A stretch of DNA of 64,000 nt, taken from positions 1 to 64,000 of IMG/VR virus record IMGVR_UViG_3300047362_000477. One strand, written 5' to 3'. Origin of the DNA: a virus. Positions 7,818 through 49,820 of the stretch are shown piece by piece. Each line of letters begins with the position of its first letter. Position 1 is the first letter of the stretch. The notes beneath the pieces are model-generated. The model made no database searches. It saw only the letters and a program-made list of their open reading frames with translations, and had not been told where the DNA came from. A program made the position numbers and the translations under genes.

Positions 7818-7846
7818 TTGACATTAAATGATAAATAGTGTAGTAT
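7818..7846 (+). promoter_or_regulatory. promoter with leader stem for gene 7888
   Basis: TTGACA at 7818-7823, a 17-base spacer and TAGTAT at 7841-7846. GATAAATA (7830-7837), a T4-late-like motif, lies in the spacer. Downstream, GTACC-AGATA-GGTAC (7856-7870) could form a small stem in the leader before the AAAGGAG site. Promoter quality is moderate because the -10 matches at 4 of 6 bases. Confidence 0.6.
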
Positions 7847-7887
7847 ATACAAAATGTACCAGATAGGTACGTTAAAGGAGAATTATA

Positions 7888-8160
7888 ATGGCTTTTATAA
7901 GAACTATAGACGTGGTTACTACTAACGGTAATACCTACGATACTTCAGAAGAGTTTACTGCTGAACATGGCCCAATGGGTACTGAAAATACTAATTACAT
8001 TACCGACAGTTCAATAACTCTTAATGAAGCTAAAGATGGTGTTAGAATTGTACTACATTACGTTGATGAAGCAACTTGGCAATCTCATAAAGATGCGGCG
8101 GCAGATGACGTTGCGGCTAAAGATATTACCATTTCTGAAGTAAGTAACGAAACAGTATAA
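7888..8160 (+). CDS. hypothetical protein
   Basis: A 90-residue protein with an AAAGGAG ribosome site. It is mostly beta-strand (FIRTIDVVTTNGNTYDTSEEF, later VRIVLHYVDEATWQSH) and has an acidic, Ala-rich tail. Its own promoter pair, including a late-type motif, suggests a separately controlled and perhaps abundant product such as a virion accessory protein, but no family is recognised. Confidence 0.6.
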   Translation: MAFIRTIDVVTTNGNTYDTSEEFTAEHGPMGTENTNYITDSSITLNEAKDGVRIVLHYVDEATWQSHKDAAADDVAAKDITISEVSNETV

Positions 8161-8172
8161 TCAGAGCAAACA

Positions 8173-8766: not shown

Positions 8767-9689
8767 TACAAGGATACTACGAACAAGAACCAGAAAATAA
8801 TACATTTCAAGATGTAATTATTGACGTTACTCATAGATGCAATATGACTTGTAAAAATTGTTACATTCCTAATAGAAATATTCCTGATATGAATATGGAA
8901 AAGATGTTAGAAACAATTAGTAAGTTTCCAAAACGTACAATGATTAGAATAATAGGTGCAGAACCTACTATGAGAAAAGATCTACCTGAAATGATTCAAC
9001 GTATTAGAAAAACAGGTAACAGATGTACATTGTTAACAAATGGTTTACGTCTTGCAAAAGATAGTTATGTAAAAACTCTAAAACAACATGGTCTTAGACA
9101 TTGTTATATTAGTATGAATGGAGCAGATAATGATGATTGGTACGAAGCTATTGATGAATTAAGATGTGCTACAAAGAAAGTTCAAGCATTAAAAAACTTA
9201 TCAAATAATAAGTTTATTATTGACACAGGAACTATTATTGTAAAAGGTATAAACGATTCTGCTATTGAACGTATGTTGTACGTATTTAATAATAATGGCA
9301 TAGATAACGCAGTATGTCGTATTAAAAATGTTGGTGACATAGGTCGTAGCATGACTGACAATGACGATGGTAACTATACATTACCAGGTTTGGTTAAACT
9401 GTTTGCTGAACAAACTAAACTATCAGAAGACTATATCTATAGCTGGAGAAATAAACCAATATATCAAAACGATGCACCAGAAGTAGATAGTTTTATGTTT
9501 CCTATGGATCCTAAAGCAGAAGGTAAATTTATGCATAAAAGTGGAATATGGTTTAAGATTGCCAACTGGAAAGGTGAAGAAGGACAAAGCATACCATTAC
9601 GTAATAATACACGTAGAGGAAGGCTTACACCAAATTGGAAAGTAGCTCCATTCTTTGAACACGTAAAAATGAACGAAGGTGGATACTAA
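8763..9689 (+). CDS. radical SAM enzyme
   Basis: A 308-residue protein. DVTHRCNMTCKNCYIPNR gives the CX3CX2C cluster motif (Cys26, Cys30, Cys33) that binds the [4Fe-4S] cluster and SAM. IIGAEPTMRKDLPEM stands where GGEP is usual (GAEP, a conservative change), and TLLTNGLRL is the next conserved strand. It lacks a clear Cys-rich C-terminal SPASM domain. Unlike the - strand island enzymes, it has no N-terminal Cys module. The QueD-like gene downstream raises a queuosine-type role, but the motif spacing is MoaA/SPASM-like rather than diagnostic of QueE. Confidence 0.85.
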   Translation: MIQGYYEQEPENNTFQDVIIDVTHRCNMTCKNCYIPNRNIPDMNMEKMLETISKFPKRTMIRIIGAEPTMRKDLPEMIQRIRKTGNRCTLLTNGLRLAKDSYVKTLKQHGLRHCYISMNGADNDDWYEAIDELRCATKKVQALKNLSNNKFIIDTGTIIVKGINDSAIERMLYVFNNNGIDNAVCRIKNVGDIGRSMTDNDDGNYTLPGLVKLFAEQTKLSEDYIYSWRNKPIYQNDAPEVDSFMFPMDPKAEGKFMHKSGIWFKIANWKGEEGQSIPLRNNTRRGRLTPNWKVAPFFEHVKMNEGGY

Positions 9690-11625: not shown

Positions 11626-11979
11626 ATGACTTACTTGGTCACAGAAAATTGCATCAAGTGTAAACATATGGATTGCGTAGAAGTATGTCCAGTTGATTGT
11701 TTTTATGAAGGAGATAACTTTTTAGCGATCAATCCAGATGAATGTATTGATTGTGGAGTATGTGAACCTGAATGTCCAGCTGATGCTATTGTTGCAGATA
11801 TTGCATTAGATCCAGGAGAGCTAGATTATTGGACAAAGGTTAATACTGAGATGGCTGAAAAGTGGCCAAACATAACAGTAGCTCGTCCACATGATAAACC
11901 ACCTGATTGGGAAGAATGGGACGGTAAACCAAATAAGAGAGAACTATTATCAGAAGAACCAGGAAAGGGCGATGAATAA
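11626..11979 (+). CDS. fdxA: seven-iron ferredoxin (FdxA type)
   Basis: A 117-residue protein very close to bacterial FdxA. It has Cys9, 12, 17, 21, 25, 40, 43, 46 and 50 in the [18 protein letters not shown] and [12 protein letters not shown] arrangement. In FdxA three of these hold a [3Fe-4S] cluster and four a [4Fe-4S] cluster. The tail ([10 protein letters not shown], then DWEEWDGKP) is also FdxA-like. It can pass single electrons, which radical SAM enzymes need to cleave SAM. The acidic Glu-rich C-terminus extends a little past the usual end. A GGGG-type site precedes the ATG. Confidence 0.92.
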
Positions 11980-12549
11980 ATGATACAAACAGAACCGACA
12001 CCAAATCCAAATGCATTAAAGTTCATGCCATTGCGTGATGTAAGAGGTAATAAAGGACCATTGCATTATAAAAAAGATTCAGATAAAAATCCTAAAGAAG
12101 AATCAGATATAGCTAATTCTTTATTTGGAATAAAAGGTATTAAAGATGTATTTTTTGGTTCTGACTTTATTACTATTGGTAAAGAAGATATTGTAGAATG
12201 GGAAGAGATTAAAGAACCAATCATATTTCTTATAGAAGCCAATAGTGGGTTACCGTTTGTAAAAGAAAAAATTAAACCAGCCTGTGATACAATTAATAGT
12301 GATGCAGGTGAAAGTAAAGTTATCAAAACAATAAAAAAATTATTAGATGAAAGAGTAAGACCTGCTGTCGCAATGGATGGCGGCGATATACTATTTCACG
12401 GATATCACGAAGGTATTGTAAAATTAGAAATGTATGGTGCTTGTAGTGGTTGTCCTAGCTCATCAGCAACTTTAAAGATGGGTGTTGAAAATATGCTGAA
12501 GCATTATATTCCGGAAGTACGAAAGGTAGAGCAAGTATATGAGAACTAA
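11980..12549 (+). CDS. nfu: Nfu-type Fe-S scaffold/carrier
   Basis: A 189-residue protein with two domains. The Nfu N-terminal domain covers about 1-95 (TEPTPNPNALKFMP at the start is typical). The NifU C-terminal domain covers about 115-189, with CSGCPSS carrying the cluster-binding Cys155 and Cys158. Nfu proteins dimerise around a [4Fe-4S] cluster and give it to enzymes such as lipoyl synthase, itself a radical SAM enzyme. It starts directly after the ferredoxin stop and overlaps the next Nfu-like gene by 11 bases. Confidence 0.9.
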   Translation: MIQTEPTPNPNALKFMPLRDVRGNKGPLHYKKDSDKNPKEESDIANSLFGIKGIKDVFFGSDFITIGKEDIVEWEEIKEPIIFLIEANSGLPFVKEKIKPACDTINSDAGESKVIKTIKKLLDERVRPAVAMDGGDILFHGYHEGIVKLEMYGACSGCPSSSATLKMGVENMLKHYIPEVRKVEQVYEN

Positions 12550-12895
12550 AGAAGAAATACTAAAACACATTGAAGAAGTTATGAAAGAATATGTTGATCC
12601 AAACGTAGCACAACATGGTGGTAAAGTTAATGTTATTGATTTTGATATGGAATCAGGAACATTACATTTACAAATGAGTGGCTCTTGTAGTGGGTGTGCT
12701 GGTAGTACACAAACATTATCATATGGAGTAGAGCAAACATTAACACATTTTGTAGAAGAAGTAAAAGCTATTACTAGTGAAGATGATGCTATGTATAGTG
12801 ATCCATATTATGTTTCAGATCCAATGAGTATGTATGATTATTCAGAACCTGATCCAGGCTTAGACTTGGAAGAAGGCGAGAGTGATGGCAGTTAA
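12539..12895 (+). CDS. second NifU C-terminal-domain protein
   Basis: A 118-residue protein with a NifU C-terminal domain: NVAQHGGKVNVIDFD (22-36) and MSGSCSGCAGSTQTL (46-60), with Cys50 and Cys53. An acidic tail follows from about residue 83. It lacks the N-terminal domain of its neighbour, so the phage carries a full-length and a short Nfu side by side. The two may form mixed dimers or serve different targets. It overlaps both neighbours. Confidence 0.88.
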   Translation: MRTKEEILKHIEEVMKEYVDPNVAQHGGKVNVIDFDMESGTLHLQMSGSCSGCAGSTQTLSYGVEQTLTHFVEEVKAITSEDDAMYSDPYYVSDPMSMYDYSEPDPGLDLEEGESDGS

Positions 12896-13223: not shown

Positions 13224-13374
13224 TACAGACGAAGCTGATCAATTCGGAATATCTGACAGAGAACTTATTAAAACATTATATAGAAAAATACTTATGTTGG
13301 AAGACCGTATTGTTAATTTAGAAGTTGATAACGAAGCTCATGAAGAGTGGATGAAAAATAGAGAAAATAAATGA
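13204..13374 (+). CDS. small coiled-coil protein
   Basis: A 56-residue charged protein whose ATG lies inside the end of the ABM gene and whose TGA overlaps the next ATG. The second half (MLEDRIVNLEVDNEAHEEW) has heptad spacing and should form a coiled coil. Function unknown; the exact overlaps support it as a gene. Confidence 0.55.
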   Translation: MEKIKVNTDEADQFGISDRELIKTLYRKILMLEDRIVNLEVDNEAHEEWMKNRENK

Positions 13375-13892
13375 TTAGAAATTTAAAAAAGTATATTAGA
13401 ACAGTTCCTGATTATCCTGTAAAAGGTGTTAACTTTTATGATTTAAATAGTTTATTTGCTAGTGATCTATGGCATCCATTGGTTACTGAAATGGCTAATA
13501 TGGATTTTGAACAAATACCAACACACATTTTAGGAATTGAAAGTAGAGGCTTTGTATTAGGGTCAGCAATAGCTCATGAATTATGTTTGCCATTTGTAAT
13601 GGTTCGTAAAAAAGGTGCTAAATACCCAGGTAAGCTATTAGAAGAATCTTATGAGTTAGAGTATGGAACTGATACACTAACATTACAAGAAGGTATACTA
13701 GGGCATACTAGTAGAGTATTAATTGCAGATGACTTAATTGCCACTGGCGGTAGCATGATTGCTACAAAAAAGTTAGTAGAACAGACTGGTGCAATAGTTG
13801 AAGGTGCTATTACGATTGTTAATTTAAAATATCTTAACAAATCAGAATTAAGCAACATAGATATAAGTTCTGCATTGGAGATAGATAAATGA
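13371..13892 (+). CDS. apt: adenine phosphoribosyltransferase
   Basis: A 173-residue protein, normal length for the family. IRTVPDYPVKGVNFYD at the start, GIESRGFVLGSAIAHEL in the middle and the PRPP-binding motif VLIADDLIATGGS (116-128) are characteristic. APRT joins adenine and PRPP to make AMP and pyrophosphate. Its PRPP could come from the synthetase at 17395. Its adenine could come from the nucleosidase-like protein at 52376, which may cleave the 5'-deoxyadenosine and SAH left by SAM-dependent enzymes. It sits between Fe-S genes and overlaps the A-type carrier by 4 bases. Confidence 0.93.
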   Translation: MIRNLKKYIRTVPDYPVKGVNFYDLNSLFASDLWHPLVTEMANMDFEQIPTHILGIESRGFVLGSAIAHELCLPFVMVRKKGAKYPGKLLEESYELEYGTDTLTLQEGILGHTSRVLIADDLIATGGSMIATKKLVEQTGAIVEGAITIVNLKYLNKSELSNIDISSALEIDK

Positions 13893-14269
13893 TAAAAGTA
13901 ACAGATACCGCATCTGAACATTTAAAAAATATAAGTGAAGCTAATGATGGCAAAATTCCTTGCCTAGGATTAAAGGGAGGCGGGTGTGCAGGATTTAGTT
14001 ATGATTGGACACTAAAAGAAGAATCAGAACTTGACAAAAAATCTGATCATGTTATAATAATGGATAACGGTGCAAAGATGGCTGTTGATGGAACTAGTAT
14101 TATGTACTTGATTGGTACTACTCTAGAATTAAAAAGAGACACCTTTGGTACTACACTTGAGATAGTTAATCCTAATTCACAAAGTTCATGTGGATGTGGT
14201 GAAAGTGTAAACTTTAATATGGAAAAAATTGAAGCCAATCAAGATCAAATTACACAATTAAAAGGATAA
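13889..14269 (+). CDS. A-type Fe-S carrier (IscA/ErpA/SufA family)
   Basis: A 126-residue protein with the three conserved Cys of the family: Cys33 in GGGCAGFSY, and Cys101 and Cys103 in SSCGCGES. Length is near the usual 105-120 plus a short charged tail. A-type carriers take clusters from the scaffold and pass them to [4Fe-4S] enzymes, ErpA and IscA being needed for many of these in bacteria. With SufT, two Nfu proteins and FdxA it makes five Fe-S genes in 3 kb. I cannot tell IscA from ErpA by eye. Confidence 0.92.
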   Translation: MIKVTDTASEHLKNISEANDGKIPCLGLKGGGCAGFSYDWTLKEESELDKKSDHVIIMDNGAKMAVDGTSIMYLIGTTLELKRDTFGTTLEIVNPNSQSSCGCGESVNFNMEKIEANQDQITQLKG

Positions 14270-17394: not shown

Positions 17395-18336
17395 ATGAAA
17401 CTTATTGCAGGTAATAGCAATCTAGAAATTGCTAATAAAATTGCCAAATACTGTTCAACTACACTAATCCCAACAAAAATTGATACATTTGCAGACGGAG
17501 AATGCAATGTAGAATTTTTAGAAAACATCAGGGGTCAAGATGTTTTTATTATACAATCAACAAGTACACCAGTTAACGATAGTCTAATGGAATTAATGAT
17601 AATGATTGATGCCGCTAGAAGATCTAGTGCTGACAGAATAACTGCTGTCATGCCATACTTTGGTTATGCTAGACAAGATAGGAAGAGTGCAAGTCGTACG
17701 CCTATTACTGCAAAACTAGTAGCCAATTTATTAACAAAGTCTGGTGCTGATAGAATTATTACTATGGATTTACACGCAGGTCAGATACAAGGATTTTTTG
17801 ATATTCCTGTAGATGATTTAACATCACGTATTGCATTCAGTAACGATATTAAAGAAGCTATTCCTAATGCAAAGAATGTAGGAACTGTATTTGTAAGTCC
17901 TGATGCAGGTGGTACAGTTAGAGCAAGAAAGTTTGCCAATATGTTTAATGGTGATGTAGCTATTGTAGACAAACGTAGACCAGAAGCAGGTAAATCAGAA
18001 GTAATGAATCTAATTGGAGAGGTAAAAGGACTTCATGCAATTCTAGTAGACGACATTGTTGATAGTGGTGGAACACTATGTAATGCCGCTCAAGCAATTA
18101 TGGACGCAGGAGCACTATCTGTTAGAGCATATATTACACATGGTGTTCTTACAAATGGAGCTTGTAAAAAAGTAGAAAATAGTGTACTAGAAGAATTAGT
18201 AATCACAGACAGTATTAACTTTAAATGTCCAGATGATTGTAAAAAGACTAGACAAGTTAGTGTATCAGGAATGATAGGAGAAGCAATTAGACGTGTTACT
18301 AACGAAGAGAGTGTGAGTAGCTTGTTTAATGGATGA
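17395..18336 (+). CDS. prs: ribose-phosphate pyrophosphokinase (PRPP synthetase)
   Basis: A 313-residue, apparently complete enzyme that makes PRPP from ribose 5-phosphate and ATP. Visible family marks are FADGECNVEFLENIRGQDVF, the catalytic region ARQDRKSASRTPITAKLVA, TMDLHAGQIQGFFDIPVD and the PRPP-binding AILVDDIVDSGGT. Length equals bacterial enzymes. PRPP feeds nucleotide synthesis and salvage, including the phage adenine phosphoribosyltransferase at 13371. It has a perfect promoter of its own and a good ribosome site. Confidence 0.96.
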   Translation: MKLIAGNSNLEIANKIAKYCSTTLIPTKIDTFADGECNVEFLENIRGQDVFIIQSTSTPVNDSLMELMIMIDAARRSSADRITAVMPYFGYARQDRKSASRTPITAKLVANLLTKSGADRIITMDLHAGQIQGFFDIPVDDLTSRIAFSNDIKEAIPNAKNVGTVFVSPDAGGTVRARKFANMFNGDVAIVDKRRPEAGKSEVMNLIGEVKGLHAILVDDIVDSGGTLCNAAQAIMDAGALSVRAYITHGVLTNGACKKVENSVLEELVITDSINFKCPDDCKKTRQVSVSGMIGEAIRRVTNEESVSSLFNG

Positions 18337-20398: not shown

Positions 20399-21331
20399 AT
20401 GGCTAAAGATCTTTGGGTAGAAAAATATAGGCCAGCAGATATTAGTACGTATGTATTTCGTGATGAAGCACAACGAAAGCAAGTACAGAACTGGATTAAT
20501 GATGGAGGAATTCCGCATTTACTATTCAGTGGTAGCCCAGGTACTGGTAAAACTACATTAGCAAAAGTTCTTATTAATGAACTTAAAGTAGAAAAAAATG
20601 ATGTGTTATACATCAATGCTAGTAGAGACAACGGCGTTGAAATGATTCGTAAACGTATTAGTGCATTTAGTGAAACTATGCCGTGGGGTGAGTTTAAAGT
20701 AATCTTACTTGATGAGGCTGATCATATTTCGCCAGAAGGTCAAGCGGCTTTACGTGGTGTAATGGAACAATATCATGCTAGTGTAAGATTTATTTTAACT
20801 TGTAACTATCCTAATATGATTATTCCTGCACTTCATAGTAGGTGTCAAGGGTTTCATATTAATCAATTAGACCAGACAGAATTTACTGTAAGAGTAGGTG
20901 AGATATTAGCAGACAACAATGTTAAATTTGATCTTGAAACATTAGATGCAATGGTTAGAGCTAACTATCCTGATTTACGTAAAACAATTAATACAGTACA
21001 GATGACTATTGTAGATAACAATCTTGTTATGCCTGATGAAAATACAAACACAAGTGAATGGCGTTTAACAATGGTAGAATTGTTTAAAGCAGGTAAGATA
21101 GCTGACGCCCGTAAACTAATTATTAAAAGTGCAAGACCAGATGAATACAATGACATCTTTACTTGGTTGTATAAAAACTTAGATCTATATGCTAAAGATG
21201 ACTTTCAATATGATTCTTGTGTACTAGCTATTAGAGAAGGCATGATAAAACATACGCAGGTTGCAGATCCAGAAATTAATTTAAGTGCCACATTGATTGA
21301 GATATCAAGGACACTTAATGACAATAAGTAA
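20399..21331 (+). CDS. sliding clamp loader AAA+ subunit (gp44-like)
   Basis: A 310-residue AAA+ ATPase. WVEKYRPADISTYVF (6-20) is the RFC/gp44 start, GSPGTGKTT (45-53) Walker A, LLDEADH (103-109) Walker B and SRC (147-149) the arginine-finger motif. T4 gp44 forms four of the five clamp-loader subunits and places the gp45 clamp on DNA. The T4 partner gp62 is not recognisable in the next two genes, and no clamp gene is in the window. It starts right at the previous stop. Confidence 0.92.
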   Translation: MAKDLWVEKYRPADISTYVFRDEAQRKQVQNWINDGGIPHLLFSGSPGTGKTTLAKVLINELKVEKNDVLYINASRDNGVEMIRKRISAFSETMPWGEFKVILLDEADHISPEGQAALRGVMEQYHASVRFILTCNYPNMIIPALHSRCQGFHINQLDQTEFTVRVGEILADNNVKFDLETLDAMVRANYPDLRKTINTVQMTIVDNNLVMPDENTNTSEWRLTMVELFKAGKIADARKLIIKSARPDEYNDIFTWLYKNLDLYAKDDFQYDSCVLAIREGMIKHTQVADPEINLSATLIEISRTLNDNK

Positions 21332-26212: not shown

Positions 26213-26439
26213 TCGCTCATTTTTTTAACAAAATATTCCCATTCTGAAAATAGAGTTACTCTTATCCAATTATGTCTAGGATCAACACTAGTTAGATACC
26301 TTTCTATCCAGTACCAGCTAAACCAAACAATTTTACCACTAGACATTTTTTTTGGTAACCATGCAAACTTTTTTGTTGGTTCCATATTTGTTGTCATTCT
26401 AAGTGGTGTATTAGTTAATACCTTTTTTAAATGTTTCAT
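26209..26439 (-). CDS. hypothetical small protein at the end of the radical SAM island
   Basis: A 76-residue protein starting inside the end of the 26411 radical SAM gene (29-base overlap). A longer frame from 26514 is possible but less likely. The sequence is basic and Trp-rich (KFAWLPKKMSSGKIVWFSWYW) and ends in a charged strand. Its family is unknown to me. As the last gene of a polycistron of about 19 kb it may still belong to the pathway. Confidence 0.5.
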   Translation of the reverse strand: MKHLKKVLTNTPLRMTTNMEPTKKFAWLPKKMSSGKIVWFSWYWIERYLTSVDPRHNWIRVTLFSEWEYFVKKMSD

Positions 26440-27595
26440 CGCCTGGAAATAATGGCATCTGAGTGCCTGGTTTACGTTTTGGTATTTTACTATCAGCACT
26501 TGATACACAAGCACCAGTAGTACATTTTACAGGACCATCAAATAGTTTGAATCCTGTTTCAATGTTTCCTAAAGGCTGATCGTGACAGCTATAACTTCTT
26601 TTAATACTACCATCTGGTTCACGTATAATAATTGATCTATATCCACTACTACATTCCCAACCTTCAAACTTATTAAAATTAAAAGCATTAAATCTTTCTG
26701 CTTGATCCATATACCAAGGACTGCCTTCTTTATCTCTAAACTCAATTTGCATATGCCATGGCACATCTGCACTTTGTTTTCTATAATGATCGTCTTTATC
26801 AATTTTAAAATTAGGTTTAGGTCTTACAACTAATTGTCGTTGTTGTGCTTTAGCTTCTGTATATGCTCTTTGTGGCATTCCATTATAAAGCCTTTGTTTC
26901 ATTTCATCTGTATAGCCGTCTACAATTTTACTTGCAGTAGGATCTGATTGAGGTTTTAATGTAACATTAATTCCTTGTTCATGAAAGAACAATGCATTTT
27001 CCCAATCTCTTTCAAACCATTCTGGAACCATAACTTGATTAATTGTAATTTGTACATCATGTTCTTGACAAAATATAAGTTTATCAGCAAACGCCTGCAT
27101 TTTTTCTTTTGAGTCAACGTGCTCTGTATGCAAACTTGCAGTAATACTTGCTCTATGAAATTTACTTGCATAATCAACATATGTTCCAAACCATTTCATA
27201 TTACGACTACAGTTTGAAGTCATATGTACACTTGTATAATTTGTATTGTGTGCATCATCTGATAGATGCTTCATTATATCTAAATAGCCAGGGTGGAATG
27301 TTGGCTCACCTCCACTTAAACTAAAATGAAAACTATTGAAGCCACGTTCACGAGCTTGACGTTTTATTTCATCTACAGTTTTTAAACAAAGTTCTGTAGG
27401 TCTATGATCTTTTCTATCGCTTCTAGCATAAGGCCAACAGTAACTACATTTGTAATTACAGAATCTTCCTAGTAGCCAACTAACAGTAAACATATCTCTA
27501 TACAACATTGTACGTTGACCTACTCTAACTAGATCATTATACGGTGTTGCAGTAAAATCGTATTCACTCCATTTTAAGTCTTTATCTTTACTCAC
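26411..27595 (-). CDS. radical SAM enzyme with Cys-rich C-terminal domain
   Basis: A 394-residue protein. GRFCNYKCSYCWPYAR gives Cys46, Cys50, Cys53 (CX3CX2C), and FSLSGGEPTFHPGYLD is the SAM-binding GGEP segment. A C-terminal domain with EGWECSSGYRSIIIREPDGS, SYSCHDQPLG and KCTTGACVSS looks SPASM/twitch-like, holding one or more extra Fe-S clusters. That domain closely resembles the free-standing protein at 29144-29545. Unlike most island members it lacks the N-terminal FCxLP/CC module. It overlaps the upstream 91-residue gene by 8 bases. Confidence 0.88.
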   Translation of the reverse strand: MSKDKDLKWSEYDFTATPYNDLVRVGQRTMLYRDMFTVSWLLGRFCNYKCSYCWPYARSDRKDHRPTELCLKTVDEIKRQARERGFNSFHFSLSGGEPTFHPGYLDIMKHLSDDAHNTNYTSVHMTSNCSRNMKWFGTYVDYASKFHRASITASLHTEHVDSKEKMQAFADKLIFCQEHDVQITINQVMVPEWFERDWENALFFHEQGINVTLKPQSDPTASKIVDGYTDEMKQRLYNGMPQRAYTEAKAQQRQLVVRPKPNFKIDKDDHYRKQSADVPWHMQIEFRDKEGSPWYMDQAERFNAFNFNKFEGWECSSGYRSIIIREPDGSIKRSYSCHDQPLGNIETGFKLFDGPVKCTTGACVSSADSKIPKRKPGTQMPLFPGDETFKKGIN

Positions 27596-27863
27596 TGTCG
27601 TCCTCTCCTAAGATATGGATAGTACCACATCCTCTACATTTACAAGTAGTTTTTGACATTTTTAATATCATACAACATTGTTTCATTTTTCTTTTATTTG
27701 TAAAATAAAAGCATCTAGTATTCCATTCCCAATAATCAGTAACATCTTGTGACCACCATGCTTTTCCTTTTTTTCCTAAATTTAGTTCTAAATACTTTTC
27801 AAACCAATCTACAGATTTATCTTTTTCGTCCATATGATAGTTTACTAAAATTCTATGTTTCAT
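27588..27863 (-). CDS. small Cys-rich protein
   Basis: A 91-residue protein. The N-terminal half is mixed (LVNYHMDEKDKSVDWFEKYL) and the C-terminal half has CCMILKMSKTTCKCRGCGTIH, a cluster of six Cys that could bind zinc or an Fe-S cluster. It lies between two radical SAM genes and overlaps both, so it may be a partner, carrier or modified substrate. No family recognised. Confidence 0.55.
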   Translation of the reverse strand: MKHRILVNYHMDEKDKSVDWFEKYLELNLGKKGKAWWSQDVTDYWEWNTRCFYFTNKRKMKQCCMILKMSKTTCKCRGCGTIHILGEDDSE

Positions 27864-29154
27864 CTATTTGATCCAACTTATTATTAAACTTGCGATATTG
27901 TTCATATTTTTCATCATGCTTATTATTCTTAATAGCAGTTTCTAACCAACTAATAGCTCCATTGATGTGAGTTTCTAACATAAACCTTCTAGGAGTATTG
28001 CGTCTATCCTGGTGGTTTAAGCTGTCAAATACCCGTTTTAAGCCGTCTATTCCTGTTTGGAGCTCTGTAGGGTGCTGAACGTTTGCATGAAGGAAATCTG
28101 GCCATTGTAGACGGCTAGTATGCCAATGAATACCAAGTTCAAATACAATAGCTTCAGCAGTCTCGCCAAGCTCTTTTGCATTCATGCCACTAATGCAAGT
28201 AGTACCTTTTATAACATCTAGGTTATCTAATTCTGATTTACATAGTTCTATGTTTGATTTTAGCAAATCCCAATCGCTTTCTCTTCTTATACGTTCATTT
28301 AATTCTTTATATCCATCTATACTAATAGTTAGTTTAATGTTTTTAAACTTTTTCCATATATCTATAATATGCTTTTTACCTAACTTCATAATACTTAAAT
28401 TGGTACTATATTTTAATGTAACTTTTTCTGGATTAGGTACTGCTTCTAAAACTCTATAATGAATGGGATCCATAAGTGGCTCCCCTCCAGCAAATTCTAA
28501 TTCTTCAACGTGTTCCATTAATCCTATTAATTGTGAAATAAACTTCTCATCTCTTTCATATAGATTCATAACACGTCTTTTATACATATCATTCTTTTCT
28601 ACAATATCGCCTATATATTCTTGATCACCTTTGCCATAAAATTCTTTAACTTTATCCCAATCTTGCATCCATTTAGAACTATCTTTTGGCCAACACATTC
28701 TACATTTAAAATTACATACATTTGAAAGTTTTAGTTCTAGTAAAGGTATATTAAAATCAACTTCTCTATGCTCTAAATACTGTATTACATTTTTTCTTGT
28801 TGTCTCTTGGTCCATTGTATCTGTAATTCTATTTAATCTTAGACTAACAATATCCTGTGCTTCCATTTTCCAGCAATTTCTACATTGTGGTATTTTTTCT
28901 CCTAGCAATAATGAATCTCTAACCTCATTCATATATTCGCCATTCCAGTATTCTTTTAAATCAAAATCTGGATCACTTACATTTGGATTTCTTCCATCAC
29001 GTGGAGGTTGTCCTCTACAACATAGTTTTATTTCTCCTTGTGGCATAGTGCTTATATGATTAAATGGTAGTGGACAAAATGTAGATTTATCAACAGGAAG
29101 TTTTCCTATCTTGCCTATGGCTCTTTCGTAAAACTTTATATAATTACTTTTCAT
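27853..29154 (-). CDS. radical SAM enzyme, island type
   Basis: A 433-residue protein in two parts. The N-terminal module has FCPLPFNHISTMPQGEIKLCC (Cys27, 45, 46) and IPQCRNCW (Cys91, 94). The radical SAM core starts at LKLSNVCNFKCRMCWP (Cys147, 151, 154) and has LEFAGGEPLMDP further on. The front module recalls a SPASM/twitch cluster domain placed at the N-terminus instead of the C-terminus and should bind at least one more Fe-S cluster. The substrate is unknown. It overlaps both neighbours by about 10 bases. Confidence 0.9.
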   Translation of the reverse strand: MKSNYIKFYERAIGKIGKLPVDKSTFCPLPFNHISTMPQGEIKLCCRGQPPRDGRNPNVSDPDFDLKEYWNGEYMNEVRDSLLLGEKIPQCRNCWKMEAQDIVSLRLNRITDTMDQETTRKNVIQYLEHREVDFNIPLLELKLSNVCNFKCRMCWPKDSSKWMQDWDKVKEFYGKGDQEYIGDIVEKNDMYKRRVMNLYERDEKFISQLIGLMEHVEELEFAGGEPLMDPIHYRVLEAVPNPEKVTLKYSTNLSIMKLGKKHIIDIWKKFKNIKLTISIDGYKELNERIRRESDWDLLKSNIELCKSELDNLDVIKGTTCISGMNAKELGETAEAIVFELGIHWHTSRLQWPDFLHANVQHPTELQTGIDGLKRVFDSLNHQDRRNTPRRFMLETHINGAISWLETAIKNNKHDEKYEQYRKFNNKLDQIDET

Positions 29155-29545
29155 TTTTGTAATCCTTTAGAAGAGAATCTAACTCATCATCAATAGCGTC
29201 TTTTGAATGTTTTGATTCGTGTCCTATTCTAACTCTGTCAACGTGTTTAGGTAATGCTTTAGTTAATTGCACATCTGCCGCACATACACAACTTGGTTTA
29301 GTACACATTATAGTTTCTTCAGGCATTTCAAAACCATCATATATATTTCCTAGCTTACCTCCAACCTTACATATAGCTCTATATACGTCACCGGTATTGC
29401 TTATGGTAATGTTTTGTACACCTGCCCAACATTCCCAACCACGAAAGTCATTTAGTTCTTTGGCCATAATATTGTTAACATTATCTTCTTCACTTGTTCC
29501 ATCTTTGTAATGTACAATAATATTTTTAAAGTTATTAATTGCCAT
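29144..29545 (-). CDS. free-standing SPASM-like domain (tail 1)
   Basis: A 133-residue protein without a radical SAM core. FRGWECWAGVQNITISNTGDVYRAICKVGGKLGNIYDGF followed by MCTKPSCVCAAD aligns by eye with the C-terminal domain of the 26411 enzyme (EGWECSSGYRSIIIREPDGS, LGNIETGFKLF, CTTGACVSS). It therefore looks like the detached cluster-binding tail of a radical SAM enzyme, probably the core at 30524-31240, which ends early. Its ATG lies inside the last codons of tail 2. Confidence 0.65.
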   Translation of the reverse strand: MAINNFKNIIVHYKDGTSEEDNVNNIMAKELNDFRGWECWAGVQNITISNTGDVYRAICKVGGKLGNIYDGFEMPEETIMCTKPSCVCAADVQLTKALPKHVDRVRIGHESKHSKDAIDDELDSLLKDYKNEK

Positions 29546-29915
29546 CTAAATGTTCCTCTGTTTCAGCTCTACCGTATCCTCTGTCTGTTTCTTTGTAACC
29601 TGTGCCTGGTGTAGTATTATTTTTCTTACATAATTGTAAACACGGACTTGGTAAATCTAATGTTTCATGCCCATCTAATATTGCTTTAAATACATCTGAA
29701 TCGTATATTTCTTGCATTGTACTAATTTTTATATTTAACTTTGCAAGATTTAGACCTTTTTGTTCACACCATTTTTCTAATTTTTGCCAGTTAAGGCGCG
29801 AACCATAAAAGTTACAAGGTCTCACATCACCAGTAGCACCTAATTGAATATTGTTTTTAATCATATTATCATCGTGTGTACATCTTGGTTCTAAGGCTGG
29901 GTTAATCTTATACAT
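29535..29915 (-). CDS. free-standing SPASM-like domain (tail 2)
   Basis: A 126-residue protein. EPRCTHDDNMIKNNIQLGATGDVRPCNFYG and LPSPCLQLCKKNN resemble the C-terminal Fe-S domain of SPASM-type radical SAM enzymes. It begins at an ATG 8 bases inside the end of the core at 29908-30531 (ATGTATAA overlap), so core and tail are almost fused. A frame slip at the overlap would give one continuous enzyme. An upstream in-frame start at 29957 lies within the core gene and is less likely. Confidence 0.6.
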   Translation of the reverse strand: MYKINPALEPRCTHDDNMIKNNIQLGATGDVRPCNFYGSRLNWQKLEKWCEQKGLNLAKLNIKISTMQEIYDSDVFKAILDGHETLDLPSPCLQLCKKNNTTPGTGYKETDRGYGRAETEEHLDGN

Positions 29916-30531
29916 ATGGATTATCCTCGCCTTTTTGAATTCCGTAATTATCTTCACCTCGCAAACTTACTACAGGATTAAATCTATCAAATCCTAAATC
30001 CATTGCCATTTGCCTAGCCGTCTCAACTTGATGTTCATTGTATTTAAAAATTAACATTTTCCATTCTAGTCTGGGTCTTCTTTCTTTTGGTATACTAGTC
30101 ATCCATTTTACGCCAGTCATTATTTGTTTCCACTTTGCATTTATTCTATAGATATGATTAGTGTCTTCTAACCCATCTATGTTAAAAACAAACTCACAAC
30201 GTTTCCAAGATTGTTCAGCGGCTTTTTGCCAAAACTTTTCTGGTTTAGCACTACCATTTGTATGTACTTGTGTCCACTTATCTCTTTCAACAAAATAACT
30301 CATAATTTCTAAAAAATCTGGATGATATATTGCATCACCATAACAACCACAAAATGTATATCTTTTAAAATTTGTAGTATCTGCTATATTAAATAATAAT
30401 TCTTTATCTAAATGTCCTGCGTCCCATATACCACCATGATTTATATCTTTCATTCTTGAACAAGCTGGACATTGTAAAACACATTTACTAGTTATTTCAA
30501 TTTCTAATTTATCATCTGGTTGATTATGCAT
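29908..30531 (-). CDS. radical SAM core without C-terminal domain (core 2)
   Basis: A 207-residue protein. ITSKCVLQCPACSRMKD gives Cys17, Cys21, Cys24. FCGCYGDAIYHPDFLEIM takes the GGEP place with GCYGD, HTNGSAKPEKFWQKA follows, and FNIDGLEDTNHIYRI is the barrel's fourth region. Sequence and segment order are close to the full-length enzyme at 43307 (GNWGDPMMHP, HTNGSMRGEKFW, FAVDGLEDTHHIYRR). It stops where that enzyme goes on into its SPASM domain; the missing part seems to be the next gene. Start chosen at the ATG overlapping core 1. Confidence 0.8.
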   Translation of the reverse strand: MHNQPDDKLEIEITSKCVLQCPACSRMKDINHGGIWDAGHLDKELLFNIADTTNFKRYTFCGCYGDAIYHPDFLEIMSYFVERDKWTQVHTNGSAKPEKFWQKAAEQSWKRCEFVFNIDGLEDTNHIYRINAKWKQIMTGVKWMTSIPKERRPRLEWKMLIFKYNEHQVETARQMAMDLGFDRFNPVVSLRGEDNYGIQKGEDNPYV

Positions 30532-31240
30532 TTTCTCGTAACCAACTTTCTTCTTCAGGACTATAATACTGTCCTGCAAATTTAATAGTTTCTTCGTGTA
30601 AAGGATGTTGTCCTAACATACCATCACTGTGTGGTTTGTTCCAACCTGTTCTATCCATATTGACTCTTGGTCTTATTTTACGAATAGTATATTCAACACC
30701 CATATCTTTTAATTCGTCTGTTATCTCAATCCATTTATCTTTCATTCCAGGTAATGCCATAATATGAACGTGCATACCTTTCCATTGATCTTGTTCTCTA
30801 TACTTTTTAATTTCTTCCCACATACCTCTTACATTGTTAATTACTTTTTCATGATATGCAAATTCAAAATGATAGCTTATAATCATATAATGTAAATATG
30901 GCAATGCTTTTTTATATATCTTTGGAGGAGGACTTCCATTGGTTGTTACACTACATCTGTATACACCATTTTCTCTAGCATACTTTAACATATCAACAAA
31001 CCTTGGATTAACAAATGGCTCACCGCCTGTAAAACTTATTTTTATTTTTTTACCTTTTGATGCTTCTACAATTTTATCTATAGTGGAGGTGTATACTTCC
31101 CAAGGCATAGAATCACTTGTAGCATCATGTAGTTCGTTACCACAGTAACTACAATTATAATTACAACGTTTACCTATGTTCCACTCAACTCTTAAAAGTT
31201 CATCTTTAGCTGGAAAGTTATCTTCAATACCTACTAGCAT
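30524..31240 (-). CDS. radical SAM core without C-terminal domain (core 1)
   Basis: A 238-residue protein. WNIGKRCNYNCSYCGNEL gives Cys26, Cys30, Cys33, and ISFTGGEPFVNPRFVDML the SAM-binding strand. CSVTTNGSPPPKIYKKAL and an HFEFAYHE segment follow. The N-terminal FCxLP module is absent and there is no C-terminal cluster domain. The matching tail may be the protein at 29144-29545, separated by core 2 and tail 2. Its last codons overlap the ATG of core 2 by 8 bases and its start overlaps the next upstream gene by 7. Confidence 0.85.
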   Translation of the reverse strand: MLVGIEDNFPAKDELLRVEWNIGKRCNYNCSYCGNELHDATSDSMPWEVYTSTIDKIVEASKGKKIKISFTGGEPFVNPRFVDMLKYARENGVYRCSVTTNGSPPPKIYKKALPYLHYMIISYHFEFAYHEKVINNVRGMWEEIKKYREQDQWKGMHVHIMALPGMKDKWIEITDELKDMGVEYTIRKIRPRVNMDRTGWNKPHSDGMLGQHPLHEETIKFAGQYYSPEEESWLRENA

Positions 31241-32421
31241 ACAAAGTATTCCTTTAGTTCTGGAACTGCTTCAACTACATTGTCTCCACGTAGTTTATCT
31301 AAATCTTTTGTGTAATTAATAAAGATGTCCCATTGTTCTTCATTAAAAGTTCTTTTGTTCATACTCTTTACTAATTTTTTAAAATCATCATAAATTGACA
31401 ATCTTTCTACTGCCTGGTCTCTTAAATTATCTGGTAAATTCATTGGACTCAAATAAGCAGGTTGATTACAAATAGTAGTAAAACTATTATTAGCACTTAC
31501 TCTTGGGTATTTATCTTCTAATTCGTTAAGGAAATTATGCAACTCTGGTAGATTGAATACATTGTAGTTTTGTAATGTTACATTAAACATTATTTGCACG
31601 TTTTCCAATTTGCTATATTCAGCTAATGTTTCTTCCAACTGTTCTATATTATATTTGCCACCTCTTATATAAGAATAAAGTTTACCAGTACCTTCTATAC
31701 TAAAACATATACTAACACGTTTGAACTGTTTTAGCAAGTTTAAAATTTTAGGATTTTGTACTGTACCATTTGTTGTATAAAACAATTCTATGTCTGTCAT
31801 GCCTTCTTCAATTAACCATTGTAGGAATTGATTGTGATGTTTTGCCATCATAGGCTCGCCACCTTTGAAGTCTATTCTCATAACATCTTTTAAGTGTGGT
31901 AGTAAGTTTCTTAAATCTTCTAGACTATATTGTAGCAACGGAACTTCGTTAATATTTTTTTGATATCTTTTATCAATCTTTGCTAATGCTATTTCTTCTT
32001 TAAACCAACTGTTACTTGCCCAACTTCCACACATACGACATTTTAAATTACATACATTTGACAAGTTAATATCTGCTTGGTATAATTTAGGAAACTCTAC
32101 AATATTTGTATCTGGTATAATACCTTTTTTAAATTCTTCTTTGTTCTTCATAAACTTTTTATTAAACCAAAGACGTCTACTTTCGCCAACTAAATCTTCT
32201 CTCTCCCAACAACTCTTACAAGCATCAGGTTGTTTCCCATCTCTAAAATCTTGTCTTAATTGTTGCATACGTTCACTATTATAGTTTTCCATAATAGTAG
32301 GATGTTCTGTATTAGGTTTCCTACCTCTATTGGTAAACTGACAACAAGGTTTAATATCACCATTAGCACTCAATGTAACGGCGTGCCAAGGCATATAACA
32401 AAATTTACTCATTAAGGCCAA
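31234..32421 (-). CDS. radical SAM enzyme, island type
   Basis: A 395-residue protein. The N-terminal module has KFCYMPWHAVTLSANGDIKPCC (Cys8, 26, 27) and ACKSCW (Cys68, 71). The core has LSNVCNLKCRMCGSWAS (Cys124, 128, 131), and DFKGGEPMMAKHHNQ stands for GGEP. The later ICFSIEGTGKLYSYIRGG belongs to the barrel's middle and is shared with the 42052 enzyme. It ends in the short acidic tail (VPELKEYF) typical of this group. It overlaps the SDR-like gene upstream by 10 bases. Confidence 0.9.
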   Translation of the reverse strand: MALMSKFCYMPWHAVTLSANGDIKPCCQFTNRGRKPNTEHPTIMENYNSERMQQLRQDFRDGKQPDACKSCWEREDLVGESRRLWFNKKFMKNKEEFKKGIIPDTNIVEFPKLYQADINLSNVCNLKCRMCGSWASNSWFKEEIALAKIDKRYQKNINEVPLLQYSLEDLRNLLPHLKDVMRIDFKGGEPMMAKHHNQFLQWLIEEGMTDIELFYTTNGTVQNPKILNLLKQFKRVSICFSIEGTGKLYSYIRGGKYNIEQLEETLAEYSKLENVQIMFNVTLQNYNVFNLPELHNFLNELEDKYPRVSANNSFTTICNQPAYLSPMNLPDNLRDQAVERLSIYDDFKKLVKSMNKRTFNEEQWDIFINYTKDLDKLRGDNVVEAVPELKEYFVC

Positions 32422-42059: not shown

Positions 42060-43320
42060 AATATTTTAACTCCTTAATAAATTTAAAGGTATCTGTACCT
42101 CTTAAACGATCAAGGTCTTTTGTGTATCTCATAAACCATTGCCAATATTTCTCTTGATCTTTTTCATCTACACCTTCCAACTGTAATCCATCTCTTATTG
42201 CATGAATGCCTGTTTGGTAGTGTATTTCTTGTGCATGATAGCTTCCTTTAGGCCAGATACTTCTATCTGGTATTTGTAGAAGTTTATCATACATGATATA
42301 TTTTAATTCTTCTGGCAAGTATGCTATGTTTAAGTAACTAGGATTAACTACAACATTACTCATACTAATACTTGCTCTATGTTCGTGTTTTTCTTTAAAC
42401 CATTTCCATACTTTATCTAACCCAAATATATTAGTTGACATTACGGTTACTGCAAATACAACTTCAATATTATCATATGTATAAAATTTCTCTATATTAT
42501 TTTCTAATTCTTTAAACGTGTATTTTCCACCACGTATAATACTATATAATTCATCTACTGCTTCTATACTAATAAGCAATTCTATATGCTTAAAGTGTTT
42601 AAATATCTCTTGAAAGTCTTCGTCAAATACTGTAGCATTAGTTGATATATCTAGCATAATATTCTTTGCTAGTCCTTGATCAATAAACCATTGTAATATT
42701 GCTTTACAACTTTCATCATACAAAGGTTCGCCACCTCTTAATGCTACCCATTGTAAATTTCTAAAGTAGTCTGGGTCTGCAAACAAGTTATCAAGAAACT
42801 GCATATCAGTTACTCCATGATATCCTATCTTTGCTTGTTCCCAATAATCTGGCTTTTCTTTGTTTAGCTTTTTTCCATCTTTGGTCCAACCTGTACTTAC
42901 AAATGGATTACAATGTAAACAAGCTAGGTTACATTTATTGCTTATTGTAAAGTCTAAATAACGTATATCAGGTTTACTAGTAGCATTATTTTTAATTGAT
43001 CCACGTTTTACATCTTCATCAAGTTTATCCCAAAAATACATTCTACGACTCTTACCACTTTGTTCTTTCTTTTGACAAGCTATACAAGCTGGCGGTATAT
43101 TTCTACCTGCATGAGCTTTTCTTAATTCTACTGCTTCTTTACTGTTTAATATTTCTGGTAATGTCTGCTTTGTAATATTGCCAAATTTTCCTTGATAGAT
43201 AATGTCTGGTAATACATTACCTCCCCACTTAATCGTTAAGGCGTTCCATGGTGCAAGGCACGTAGGAAACCTAGTATCTTTTAACATTGGATTTACATAC
43301 ATATTATTAGCATACTCCAC
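42052..43320 (-). CDS. radical SAM enzyme, island type with altered front module
   Basis: A 422-residue protein. The front module has FPTCLAPWNALTIKWGGNVLPDI, with one Cys (21) and no CC pair where other members have one, then PPACIACQ (Cys79, 82). The core Cys130, 134, 137 lie in ISNKCNLACLHCNPFVS. ALRGGEPLYDESCK is the SAM loop, and LLISIEAVDELYSIIRGGKYTF matches the 31234 enzyme. Loss of the CC pair suggests a different or missing auxiliary cluster. It overlaps the genes on both sides. Confidence 0.88.
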   Translation of the reverse strand: MEYANNMYVNPMLKDTRFPTCLAPWNALTIKWGGNVLPDIIYQGKFGNITKQTLPEILNSKEAVELRKAHAGRNIPPACIACQKKEQSGKSRRMYFWDKLDEDVKRGSIKNNATSKPDIRYLDFTISNKCNLACLHCNPFVSTGWTKDGKKLNKEKPDYWEQAKIGYHGVTDMQFLDNLFADPDYFRNLQWVALRGGEPLYDESCKAILQWFIDQGLAKNIMLDISTNATVFDEDFQEIFKHFKHIELLISIEAVDELYSIIRGGKYTFKELENNIEKFYTYDNIEVVFAVTVMSTNIFGLDKVWKWFKEKHEHRASISMSNVVVNPSYLNIAYLPEELKYIMYDKLLQIPDRSIWPKGSYHAQEIHYQTGIHAIRDGLQLEGVDEKDQEKYWQWFMRYTKDLDRLRGTDTFKFIKELKYYE

Positions 43321-44356
43321 ACGATCGTTTACATACTTCCCATTTGGCTTCTTTGACTACAGTATCAAGGTGATGGTTGTACCAATCGTTACTTAATATT
43401 TCTTGTAAACTATATTTGAATAAGCTATTTTCAGTTCTTCTTTCAATAATAGTTTCATCGCAATTTGTTTTAAGAGATTGTTTGGATAAATTTACTCCAT
43501 ATAAACTTACATGGCAACAAGGCCATACAGTTCCAAAAGGATCAATTTGTATCTCTCCTTCATTGTACCAAGGACATTTTGTTTCATTCATAAATTTTGA
43601 GTCTTTTAATACTTCTGTTATATGCATCCAATAATCTGAATCAGGTTGGTCGCTTATTGTAAACTCGTCATTTTGTTCAAACCACCATTCTTGCTCTTTC
43701 ATATTAGATTTTTTTATTACGTATTTTTCATCTTTATCATTTATTCTTATGTCACCTCCTTGGTGACTGCTTCTTGTTACAAATTGTCTGCACTTTAAAG
43801 TTTCTGCCAAATTCTTTAGTTCTTCAACTTGATGCTGGTTATGTTCAAACAATGTCATTATTATTCTTCCACTACCACCAGCTTCATTAAAACTTTTTAT
43901 ATTTTGTATAATTTTTTTAAAATCTGTTCTTCTTCTATATATGTGATGTGTATCTTCTAATCCATCTACTGCAAAATTAACCTGATGAGCAGGATACTTT
44001 CTTAATTGTTTAGCTAAATCAAACCAAAACTTTTCACCTCTCATACTACCATTTGTATGGATAGTTATAAATGTTTCTGGGTGATTCTCAATCCATATTC
44101 TTACCATCTCAACTAAATTTGGATGCATCATAGGATCGCCCCAATTACCATTTAATGCTAACTGACCAATGTACCAACCTTTAGTATCTTTAGTACATAT
44201 TCTTTTCCATAAATCTATATCAAAATGATTCAATGCTAATTCTGGTTCAGTATCTCCACCATCTTTGTTTCTAACACAAGCACCACATCTTGCATTACAA
44301 TGACTGGTTACATCAAACTGAAATTTGTGTACCTTTGATTGCCATTTCATTCCCAT
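43307..44356 (-). CDS. radical SAM/SPASM enzyme
   Basis: A 349-residue protein with the core at the N-terminus (DVTSHCNARCGACVRNKDGG; Cys20, 24, 27) and a C-terminal SPASM-like domain: CPWYNEGEIQIDPFGTVWPCCHVSLYG, then CKRSCGVC at the very end. This is the conventional SPASM order and the full-length counterpart of the split core 2/tail 2 pair (shared HTNGSxxxEKFW and VDGLEDTHHIYR). SPASM enzymes often modify peptides or sugars. It overlaps the 42052 gene by 14 bases and starts just after a small membrane-protein gene. Confidence 0.9.
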   Translation of the reverse strand: MGMKWQSKVHKFQFDVTSHCNARCGACVRNKDGGDTEPELALNHFDIDLWKRICTKDTKGWYIGQLALNGNWGDPMMHPNLVEMVRIWIENHPETFITIHTNGSMRGEKFWFDLAKQLRKYPAHQVNFAVDGLEDTHHIYRRRTDFKKIIQNIKSFNEAGGSGRIIMTLFEHNQHQVEELKNLAETLKCRQFVTRSSHQGGDIRINDKDEKYVIKKSNMKEQEWWFEQNDEFTISDQPDSDYWMHITEVLKDSKFMNETKCPWYNEGEIQIDPFGTVWPCCHVSLYGVNLSKQSLKTNCDETIIERRTENSLFKYSLQEILSNDWYNHHLDTVVKEAKWEVCKRSCGVC

Positions 44357-44359: not shown

Positions 44360-44704
44360 TTATCCGCTAAAGTCCATTCTCCAAGGATACATTGTGTATC
44401 CTGCTGGCTTTAAAATATATTCTTCAAACAATATAATAAGTACGATACCAAACACATACTTTACCCATGTAGGCCAAGTGTTTTGCCATCTTGTAAATGG
44501 TTTCAATATCCACATCCAAAAACTTGCTACTTTACCCCAAAACCAATCACCAATATTAAATGGTGGCGTTTTCCATAAAACTACTGGAATGAAAAGATAC
44601 CATATCCAAACTGGTATTTCATCTGTTGGTTCAGATGCATATATTAGGAAACACACTATTGCTAATAGATATATTCCAATGTAATTTTTTAAATGATTAT
44701 ACAT
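44360..44704 (-). CDS. membrane protein with about three helices
   Basis: A 114-residue Trp-rich membrane protein. The helices lie at about 7-22 (IGIYLLAIVCFLIYA), 30-45 (PVWIWYLFIPVVLW) and 80-97 (WVKYVFGIVLIILF). The ATG at 44704 overlaps the amidinotransferase stop (ATGTATAA), the same overlap form as tail 2; the earlier start is a GTG. It could be a membrane anchor or exporter part for the island's product. No family recognised. Confidence 0.6.
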   Translation of the reverse strand: MYNHLKNYIGIYLLAIVCFLIYASEPTDEIPVWIWYLFIPVVLWKTPPFNIGDWFWGKVASFWMWILKPFTRWQNTWPTWVKYVFGIVLIILFEEYILKPAGYTMYPWRMDFSG

Positions 44705-45761
44705 AACTCTCACAATCTCCTTCTCTAACTATATCACTCGTTAAGCAATGTATGCCACCATCCCAAAAATACTGATGTCTAAAATTCCAGTAAATTGGTT
44801 CAATACCATGTGCTTCCATTTCAGCAAAGGCGGCTTCGTTCTTGCCTGTGCAGATTACTGTGTTCTCATCTAACGATAATACGTTAACATCAAATACACT
44901 TTCGTCTGGACAGCCTACCCAATGCTCTAGCCATTTGCTTACATACTCTGTATGAAATCTTTGCTTACGAGTATTTTGAAAATCTTCTGGCATATCAAAA
45001 TCATCTGCTACTTCAATGATAGTCCAGTTCTTCATTTCTTCTGGTACCCAGTTTTTATTCCAGGTCATTAGTACACCAGGTTTCAGCAATGCAATTTTGC
45101 CATCGATATGTCCTCCGACTGGTATGTCCAAAAATTGTGTCTTAGGATATCGCAACTTTATTTCACGTTGAATCCACTCACGGCCCAGTTCCGTACCTTT
45201 ACCTCGCTTATTGTCTCCCTCATAGGGTTGGCTAAACAACACGCGGTCCCCACACTTTATCATGTTAGCCGCATGATAAAGTAAGCGATGATTCTCTACA
45301 AAGTAGTCGTATTTTTTACCACTCTCAATCATTGCTCCTGGCATACTAACCCAATCAGCACCTTCACGAAACCATTTACTACAATGGTCGTAGTATGCTA
45401 GATTCTCAAAATATCTATTATCACTACCTGTATAAATTTCAAATATTGTATTACCGTAAGGCATTAATGTATCACGTGGCATTAATGGATGATTAGGAAA
45501 TCTACAATGCATCCAAGGTAGCTGAATTTGCTCGCCACCGGTGATTGTAAATATGTCTTTTGGCCTTACGACCTCAACACCTTTGCTTTTTAATATATTT
45601 TCTAGTATGGTTAAATCTTCGGCAGTTTCTCTGAATATTTGTTCCATGACAGTTCTGGTCTCTTCGTCCTTATGCCATTCAAATGTTTCTGGAGGAAACG
45701 GAGCACCTAATATAACCCGTTTGAGCGGTTGAAACTCGCTCCATACATTAACTGATTTCAT
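44697..45761 (-). CDS. amidinotransferase/guanidino-modifying enzyme (first copy)
   Basis: A 354-residue protein of the amidinotransferase (pentein) superfamily. The His/Asp block is VGGHIDGKIALLKPGVL (His218, Asp220). The catalytic Cys339 is in FWDGGIHCLTSDIVREG, and PLKRVILGAP opens the fold. Relatives include glycine amidinotransferase (arginine plus amine gives a guanidino compound and ornithine), DDAH and arginine deiminase. A second member lies at 49816. It is the first gene of the - strand operon that runs down to 26209, so guanidine transfer may open the pathway. Confidence 0.85.
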   Translation of the reverse strand: MKSVNVWSEFQPLKRVILGAPFPPETFEWHKDEETRTVMEQIFRETAEDLTILENILKSKGVEVVRPKDIFTITGGEQIQLPWMHCRFPNHPLMPRDTLMPYGNTIFEIYTGSDNRYFENLAYYDHCSKWFREGADWVSMPGAMIESGKKYDYFVENHRLLYHAANMIKCGDRVLFSQPYEGDNKRGKGTELGREWIQREIKLRYPKTQFLDIPVGGHIDGKIALLKPGVLMTWNKNWVPEEMKNWTIIEVADDFDMPEDFQNTRKQRFHTEYVSKWLEHWVGCPDESVFDVNVLSLDENTVICTGKNEAAFAEMEAHGIEPIYWNFRHQYFWDGGIHCLTSDIVREGDCESYV

Positions 45762-49812: not shown

Positions 49813-49820
49813 TATTTATC
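49813..49820 (-). promoter_or_regulatory. GATAAATA late-promoter-like motif
   Basis: On the - strand GATAAATA lies about 75 bases before the aaRS-like ATG, just inside the end of the second amidinotransferase gene. Two T9 tracts (- strand) lie between it and the ATG. Confidence 0.4.

Follow-up and report, generated by a model that had tools for sequence, protein, structure and literature searches.

Separately encoded cores and predicted auxiliary-cluster domains of two phage radical SAM enzymes, probably forming two-subunit enzymes

How should a block of four short genes be read when two of them resemble radical SAM cores that end where an auxiliary domain would be expected, and the other two resemble that domain standing free? 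Such a block lies on the minus strand of the window, by which we mean the whole 64,000-nucleotide stretch analysed here, in the order core 1, core 2, tail 2, tail 1, with each gene overlapping the next (Table 1). A reading made from the sequence alone had proposed this place and order, with junction overlaps of 8-11 bases, and both points were confirmed, the overlaps measuring 8, 8 and 11 bases. The outer junctions of the block overlap as well, by 7 bases (31234-31240) and 11 bases (29144-29154), and since the flanking intact enzymes thus overlap the block too, the overlaps reflect the general style of this operon and are not confined to the split genes. ATG is the start codon of both tails, preceded in each case by a GGAG/GAGG-like Shine-Dalgarno site. 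The check for such sites covered the window, where a Shine-Dalgarno-like tetramer was found before 13 of the 21 starts checked in the cluster, compared with 7.5% of random positions.

Table 1. Features of the split-gene block, its junctions and the intact enzymes used for comparison (window coordinates)
Feature	Position	Strand	Details
Core 1, radical SAM catalytic core	30524..31240	-	238 aa; RCNYNCSYC (CX3CX2C); without auxiliary-cluster domain
Core 2, radical SAM catalytic core	29908..30531	-	207 aa from ATG; KCVLQCPAC (CX3CX2C); without SPASM-like domain
Tail 2, free SPASM/twitch-like predicted auxiliary-cluster domain, core 2 partner	29535..29915	-	126 aa
Tail 1, free predicted auxiliary-cluster domain, core 1 partner	29144..29545	-	133 aa
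Core 1 stop / core 2 start overlap	30524..30531	-	8 bases, ATGCATAA
Core 2 stop / tail 2 start overlap	29908..29915	-	8 bases, ATGTATAA; GAGG 5' of ATG
Tail 2 stop / tail 1 start overlap	29535..29545	-	11 bases, ATGGCAATTAA; AGAGGA upstream
Intact N-terminal-twitch radical SAM enzyme, upstream of core 1	31234..32421	-	NF033640 316 bits; cut-off 170; unsplit
Intact N-terminal-twitch radical SAM enzyme, downstream of tail 1	27853..29154	-	NF033640 294 bits; cut-off 170; unsplit
Unsplit paralogue of core 1 + tail 1 (reference)	26411..27595	-	3-314 of 316-position fam1 model, 332 bits
Unsplit paralogue of core 2 + tail 2 (reference)	43307..44356	-	4-342 of 355-position fam2 model, 311 bits

The window makes up bases 1-64000 of a 99,491-base IMG/VR record, across which there are 18 matches to PF04055 (radical SAM). 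Because the clamp loader encoded at 20399-21331 has matches in 2,597 phage records (clamp-loader or AAA ATPase proteins), including Escherichia and Synechococcus phages, the record can be assigned to a large tailed phage, probably of the T4-like type. Phages rich in radical SAM genes are already known. For example, passages of the respective papers report 11 such genes in Campylobacter phage CP220 (PMC2853527), 12 in the T4-like TARA_ERS488813_N000010 (PMC5332604), and, for pelagimyophages, a variable region that gains radical SAM cassettes (PMC7029224). The present marine phage, with its 18 matches against the 11 and 12 genes of the first two, resembles these large phages of marine or Campylobacter origin in having a big set of radical SAM genes that partly consists of variable cassettes; split radical SAM genes are not described in those passages of the three papers. 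Searches of INPHARED by blastn with the block, and by tblastn with core 1, tail 1, tail 2 and the 26411 enzyme, returned no close relatives.

Core 1 belongs to the radical SAM proteins by its match to PF04055 (61.1 bits; cut-off 29.5). When 2.9 million viral contigs were scanned with core 1 as the query, hundreds of relatives were recovered; among those examined, the majority are unsplit, about 300-400 aa long and matched by both core 1 and tail 1. On a profile of 145 unsplit relatives (fam1; 316 positions), core 1 occupies positions 6-211 (152 bits) and tail 1 positions 222-313 (102.6 bits). Tail 1 had been likened beforehand to the tail of the 26411 enzyme and suggested as the partner of core 1, and the tiling of the model by the two halves bears this out. 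For both enzymes of the block, the break lies within the linker that connects the core to the auxiliary domain. L010, L012, L013, L014, L015 and L095 likewise have core 1 and tail 1 as separate genes (L010 and L011 have the same sequence), and tail 1 is present on a further contig, 3300009126_000404. Outside the window, seven viral contigs have enzyme 1 split. Trees of core 1, of tail 1 and of the two combined all place the split forms in one group among the unsplit proteins (support 100, 93 and 100), so fission of enzyme 1 took place once in this sample. Purifying selection on the two halves is as strong as on the intact neighbours, with dN/dS at 0.045-0.137 in core 1 and 0.046-0.109 in tail 1, compared with 0.05-0.18 in the neighbours.

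Core 2 has the CX3CX2C motif and scores 26.9 bits against PF04055, just under the cut-off of 29.5, and 157 bits against its own family model; motif and family model together point to membership of the radical SAM superfamily. That model (fam2; 355 positions) was built from 69 unsplit proteins picked out by core 2 only; core 2 matches positions 11-198, and tail 2 matches positions 251-344 at 14.4 bits. The proposal that tail 2 completes core 2, made by comparison with the 43307 enzyme, therefore agrees with a model tiled by both halves, and is strengthened by 39 aligned relatives of tail 2 that share C12, C34, C92 and C96. The search for unsplit versions in related phages, which had been suggested as a check, thus succeeded for both families.

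The core2-type split turned out to be a widespread family, which goes beyond the sequence-only reading, as does a third split pair at the end of the same genome (L101), with the tail gene first. In the close relatives of core 2 (L141-L155), a core of about 207-219 aa is followed by an overlapping free tail. A wider scan gave 37 distinct split cores of this type, a few of them near-copies, and all 37 have an adjacent tail; these counts include manual corrections (a tail of its own lies downstream of L155:5977, and L186 has an overlapping tail outside the distance limit), and three cores cut by contig ends were left out. The tail follows the core in 30 of the 37 and precedes it in seven (L101, L159, L162, L198, L204, L220 and L227). 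Mapped on the tree, gene order needs four changes, three of them forced by well-supported branches, so that it flipped at least three times. In a smaller tree, 18 split cores fell on one side together with a single unsplit protein, and because a tree of a larger sample needs four switches between the split and the unsplit state, this family probably went through fission or re-fusion on several occasions. Over 31 pairs, the distances among cores are correlated with those among tails (r 0.82; shuffle maximum 0.29), a figure that includes paralogous pairs of one genome and partly reflects shared genome ancestry. Selection on core 2 and tail 2 is looser (dN/dS 0.15-0.41), and it is therefore possible that pair 2 is drifting or has changed its role. 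One further candidate split, in Campylobacter phage F379_100, was rejected, as it seems to be a frameshifted copy of an intact CP220 gene.

The tails themselves carry the conserved cysteines of a SPASM/twitch auxiliary-cluster domain, and both are predicted on these grounds to be domains of this kind: in tail 1, Cys 39, 59, 81 and 86 are invariant in 43 split and unsplit relatives, and in tail 2 the four cysteines named above are invariant in all 39 sequences. Neither window tail passes the cut-off of a curated family. For Pfam SPASM (cut-off 21.5 bits), tail 2 scores 16 bits and tail 1 gives no match; the domain is found in eight of 14 members of the tail-2 family (best 3.4e-5). PF04055 matches neither tail, and a PDB sequence search with the tail profiles returned nothing relevant. 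AlphaFold modelled the tails with fair confidence, at a mean pLDDT of 85 (tail 1) and 81 (tail 2). When their folds were compared with solved structures, the best relevant matches were the SPASM/twitch enzymes anSMEcpe, SuiB, CteB and BtrN, with weak scores; for tail 2, Foldseek and VIA ranked anSMEcpe (SPASM domain) and BtrN (auxiliary domain) best, again with weak scores. No Foldseek match was significant for either tail (E above 1), and the best VIA Z values were 3.1 and 3.7.

That one split enzyme of the window sits inside the other had been put forward as a feature in itself. The order is real, but the relatives give it a different meaning. In L095 the space between core 1 and tail 1 is empty, with one base between the core 1 stop and the tail 1 ATG; in L010/L011, L012 and L013 it holds one intact N-terminal-twitch radical SAM enzyme; in L014 and L015 it holds core 2, tail 2 and an intact enzyme of that type; and in the window core 2 and tail 2 fill it. 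This space is therefore a slot for variable cassettes, and the nested order, which arises because a core2-tail2 cassette occupies the slot in the window, is one of its states. Since the content of the slot differs by phage between nothing, one full enzyme, core 2 with tail 2, or both, the nesting is incidental. Such a slot fits the radical SAM cassettes that passages of PMC7029224 report from the variable region of pelagimyophages.

Because the splits are conserved in many independent contigs, they are more than chance, and relatives in other phages show the cuts to be ancient and to have been retained. Each core is paired with a particular tail, and the two are inherited together in either gene order. 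We consider it likely that each core and its tail are the two subunits of one enzyme, a heterodimer acting in trans. Each of the two radical SAM enzymes would then consist of two genes, one for the catalytic core and one for a small auxiliary-cluster protein. Each half has an ATG of its own, and the two would be produced from the same operon by coupled translation. The core would bind the SAM cluster, and the tail would carry the auxiliary [4Fe-4S] cluster that in relatives belongs to a C-terminal SPASM/twitch-like domain. On assembly with its core, the tail may close the barrel and provide the auxiliary cluster in trans, to serve in electron transfer or in binding the substrate, and the core would probably depend on its tail.

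That the halves are separate proteins follows from the flips in gene order, the differing frame offsets and the genes that separate core 1 from tail 1. It is thus very improbable that programmed frameshifting at the overlaps joins them into one protein. The overlap of core 2 and tail 2, with an offset of +1 in most pairs, and the single base between core 1 and tail 1 in L095 would suit such a mechanism, but every other contig examined has one to three genes separating the halves of enzyme 1, which for this enzyme excludes frame slipping, the possibility that had been suggested as a check. For enzyme 2 it is disfavoured, because offsets of +1 and -1 both occur among the core2-type pairs (L147, L149) and gene order is reversible, the tail gene coming first in seven pairs. 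An ATG sits at the junction in nearly all the tails examined, both tails of the window have Shine-Dalgarno-like sites, and no common slippery sequence was seen. Sequencing error at the junctions had been named as what would overturn the original reading, and we give almost no credence to errors of sequencing or assembly, or to decaying pseudogenes. The genome does come from a metagenome, and the F379_100 case looks like a frameshift in a single gene relative to CP220; however, the same splits recur at the same point across many independent assemblies as well as in one isolate, and this conservation across contigs refutes the explanation. Furthermore, dN/dS is low in both halves, all Cys ligands are kept, and neither half has been lost despite the intervening genes.

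Another alternative is that the free tails are independent Fe-S carriers, or assembly or electron-transfer proteins, that serve several radical SAM enzymes. The phage encodes about 18 such enzymes, the tails are small and Cys-rich, tail 1 holds its position although the genes beside it vary, and electrons can pass between radical SAM proteins by way of an auxiliary cluster, as with PapB and QueE (PMC10470005). Nevertheless, this is unlikely, given that the core2-type family has one adjacent tail per split core, that each tail matches the C-terminal domain of the unsplit relatives of its own core only, and that the tail phylogeny follows the core phylogeny.

If core and tail do form a two-subunit enzyme, how does it compare with known systems? 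Single-chain SPASM/twitch enzymes such as anSMEcpe, CteB and BtrN combine a radical SAM core with a small auxiliary-cluster domain, which is also the layout of the unsplit relatives. Here the two are separate genes, in either order and sometimes with others between them, so that the split pairs, unlike radical SAM/SPASM enzymes as usually defined, are not single polypeptides. In the PqqE/PqqD system a domain of a SPASM radical SAM enzyme is likewise supplied by a separate protein or fused; PqqD, however, is a peptide-binding or recognition domain, whereas the tails are predicted to bind clusters. LipS1 and LipS2 are both full radical SAM proteins, while in the split pairs one partner is an auxiliary-cluster domain alone and only the other contains a radical SAM core. 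Two-protein radical SAM systems are nonetheless already known through this lipoyl synthase, in which one radical SAM reaction also needs two proteins (PMC9585515), both annotated as biotin synthases according to the title of that paper. In a limited search of the open-access literature, we found no report of a split, stand-alone or separate SPASM/twitch domain or of such a gene fission.

To our knowledge, the role of the auxiliary cluster is unclear in most SPASM/twitch enzymes. A natural separation of core and auxiliary domain, available in many versions and in both orders, would allow the cluster to be added, omitted, mutated or swapped without cutting a protein. A cultured system for testing the split enzymes is offered by the Pelagibacter (SAR11) phage Mosig EXVC030M, whose culture is impure according to its authors, and which has a core2-type pair with an 8-base overlap, Mosig_00084 (211 aa) and Mosig_00085 (112 aa). 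Mosig_00084 is annotated as 'molybdenum cofactor biosynthesis enzyme' and Mosig_00085 as 'hypothetical protein', and because tails are annotated in the latter way, enzymes of this kind may be miscounted or thought truncated.

The split pairs also show that phages rebuild radical SAM enzymes through domain rearrangement. NF033640, the N-terminal-twitch family that is the main radical SAM type in this phage, has the same two domains, but fused and with the twitch first; core 1 (38.8 bits) and core 2 (27.3 bits) score below its cut-off of 170. It is possible, but rather doubtful, that this family arose from C-terminal SPASM enzymes through splitting and reversal of gene order, whereby a free tail gene would have moved before its core and re-fused, with a circular permutation of the two domains as the result. 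In that case, these phages would also mix cores with auxiliary-cluster subunits and thereby make new enzymes. A neighbouring gene at 34338-35384 matches the fam2 profile in permuted order, with positions 253-343 falling on residues 9-104 (7.2 bits, in itself not significant) and positions 10-158 on residues 86-247 (40.6 bits). This match, and the similarity of the tails to the twitch domain, would allow, but do not show, split and reordered genes as an intermediate between the two layouts. The N-terminal twitch profile matches the split tails with an E value of 1.1e-8, somewhat better than the C-terminal domains of unsplit enzymes (3.8e-6).

Beyond the window, the genome carries a third split radical SAM enzyme on the minus strand (G000:C1:97761-98713, equivalent to L101:15761-16713 on a stretch of the same genome). 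Here the gene order is reversed, such that the free SPASM-like tail precedes the core, to which it is linked by an ATGA overlap.

Split pairs were also found in other phages and contigs. For example, the cultured SAR11 phage Mosig (Pelagibacter phage Mosig EXVC030M) has a split radical SAM core, Mosig_00084, with its own free SPASM-like tail, Mosig_00085 (MT647606.1 62425-63391; L156:5980-6946), existing annotations for which are molybdenum cofactor enzyme and hypothetical protein, respectively. The record IMGVR_UViG_3300028829_003568 (L155) encodes a tandem of two different split core-tail pairs, at 4820-5732 and 5977-6973. Three short contigs of 4-7 kb, L159, L161 and L162, filed under bacterial genomes (Desulfobacterales and Oligoflexia MAGs), also have split pairs; these may be phage contigs that were wrongly binned. 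Campylobacter phage F379 gene F379_100 (L157:1205-2111) looks frameshifted compared with its intact counterpart, the 288-aa gp081 of phage CP220, and the remainder of the protein is open in a different frame.

The radical SAM enzymes of the phage seem to be accompanied by a phage-borne set of support genes. Among its members are the ferredoxin FdxA, two Nfu/NifU-like scaffolds, an A-type Fe-S carrier, SufE and a flavodoxin. The set also includes the SAM synthetase MetK (430 bits), adenine phosphoribosyltransferase, PRPP synthetase and an MTA/SAH-type nucleosidase, which could remove 5'-deoxyadenosine. MetK, the nucleosidase or Nfu was also present in several related contigs with split genes.

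Third split enzyme and candidate support genes
Feature	Coordinates	Strand	Description
Tail, third split enzyme	G000:C1:98411-98713	minus	SPASM-like, free
Core, third split enzyme	G000:C1:97761-98417	minus	radical SAM core, downstream of tail
Support set, window	11626-11979, 11980-12549, 12539-12895, 13371-13892, 13889-14269, 17395-18336	plus	
Support set, window	52376-52915	minus	
Support set, L100	L100:7078-7509, 7503-8591, 8588-8986	minus	

Between the intact neighbour of tail 1 and the 26411 enzyme, the unsplit paralogue of core 1 plus tail 1, lies a 91-aa Cys-containing protein (27588-27863, minus strand), for which Pfam and PHROG gave no match. Two genes judged by eye to be amidinotransferase-like (44697-45761 and 49816-51048, minus strand) are found amid the radical SAM genes of the window. 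An annotated amidinotransferase also occurs within the radical SAM clusters of CP220 and F379, and this co-occurrence hints at a pathway common to these phages and the window phage.
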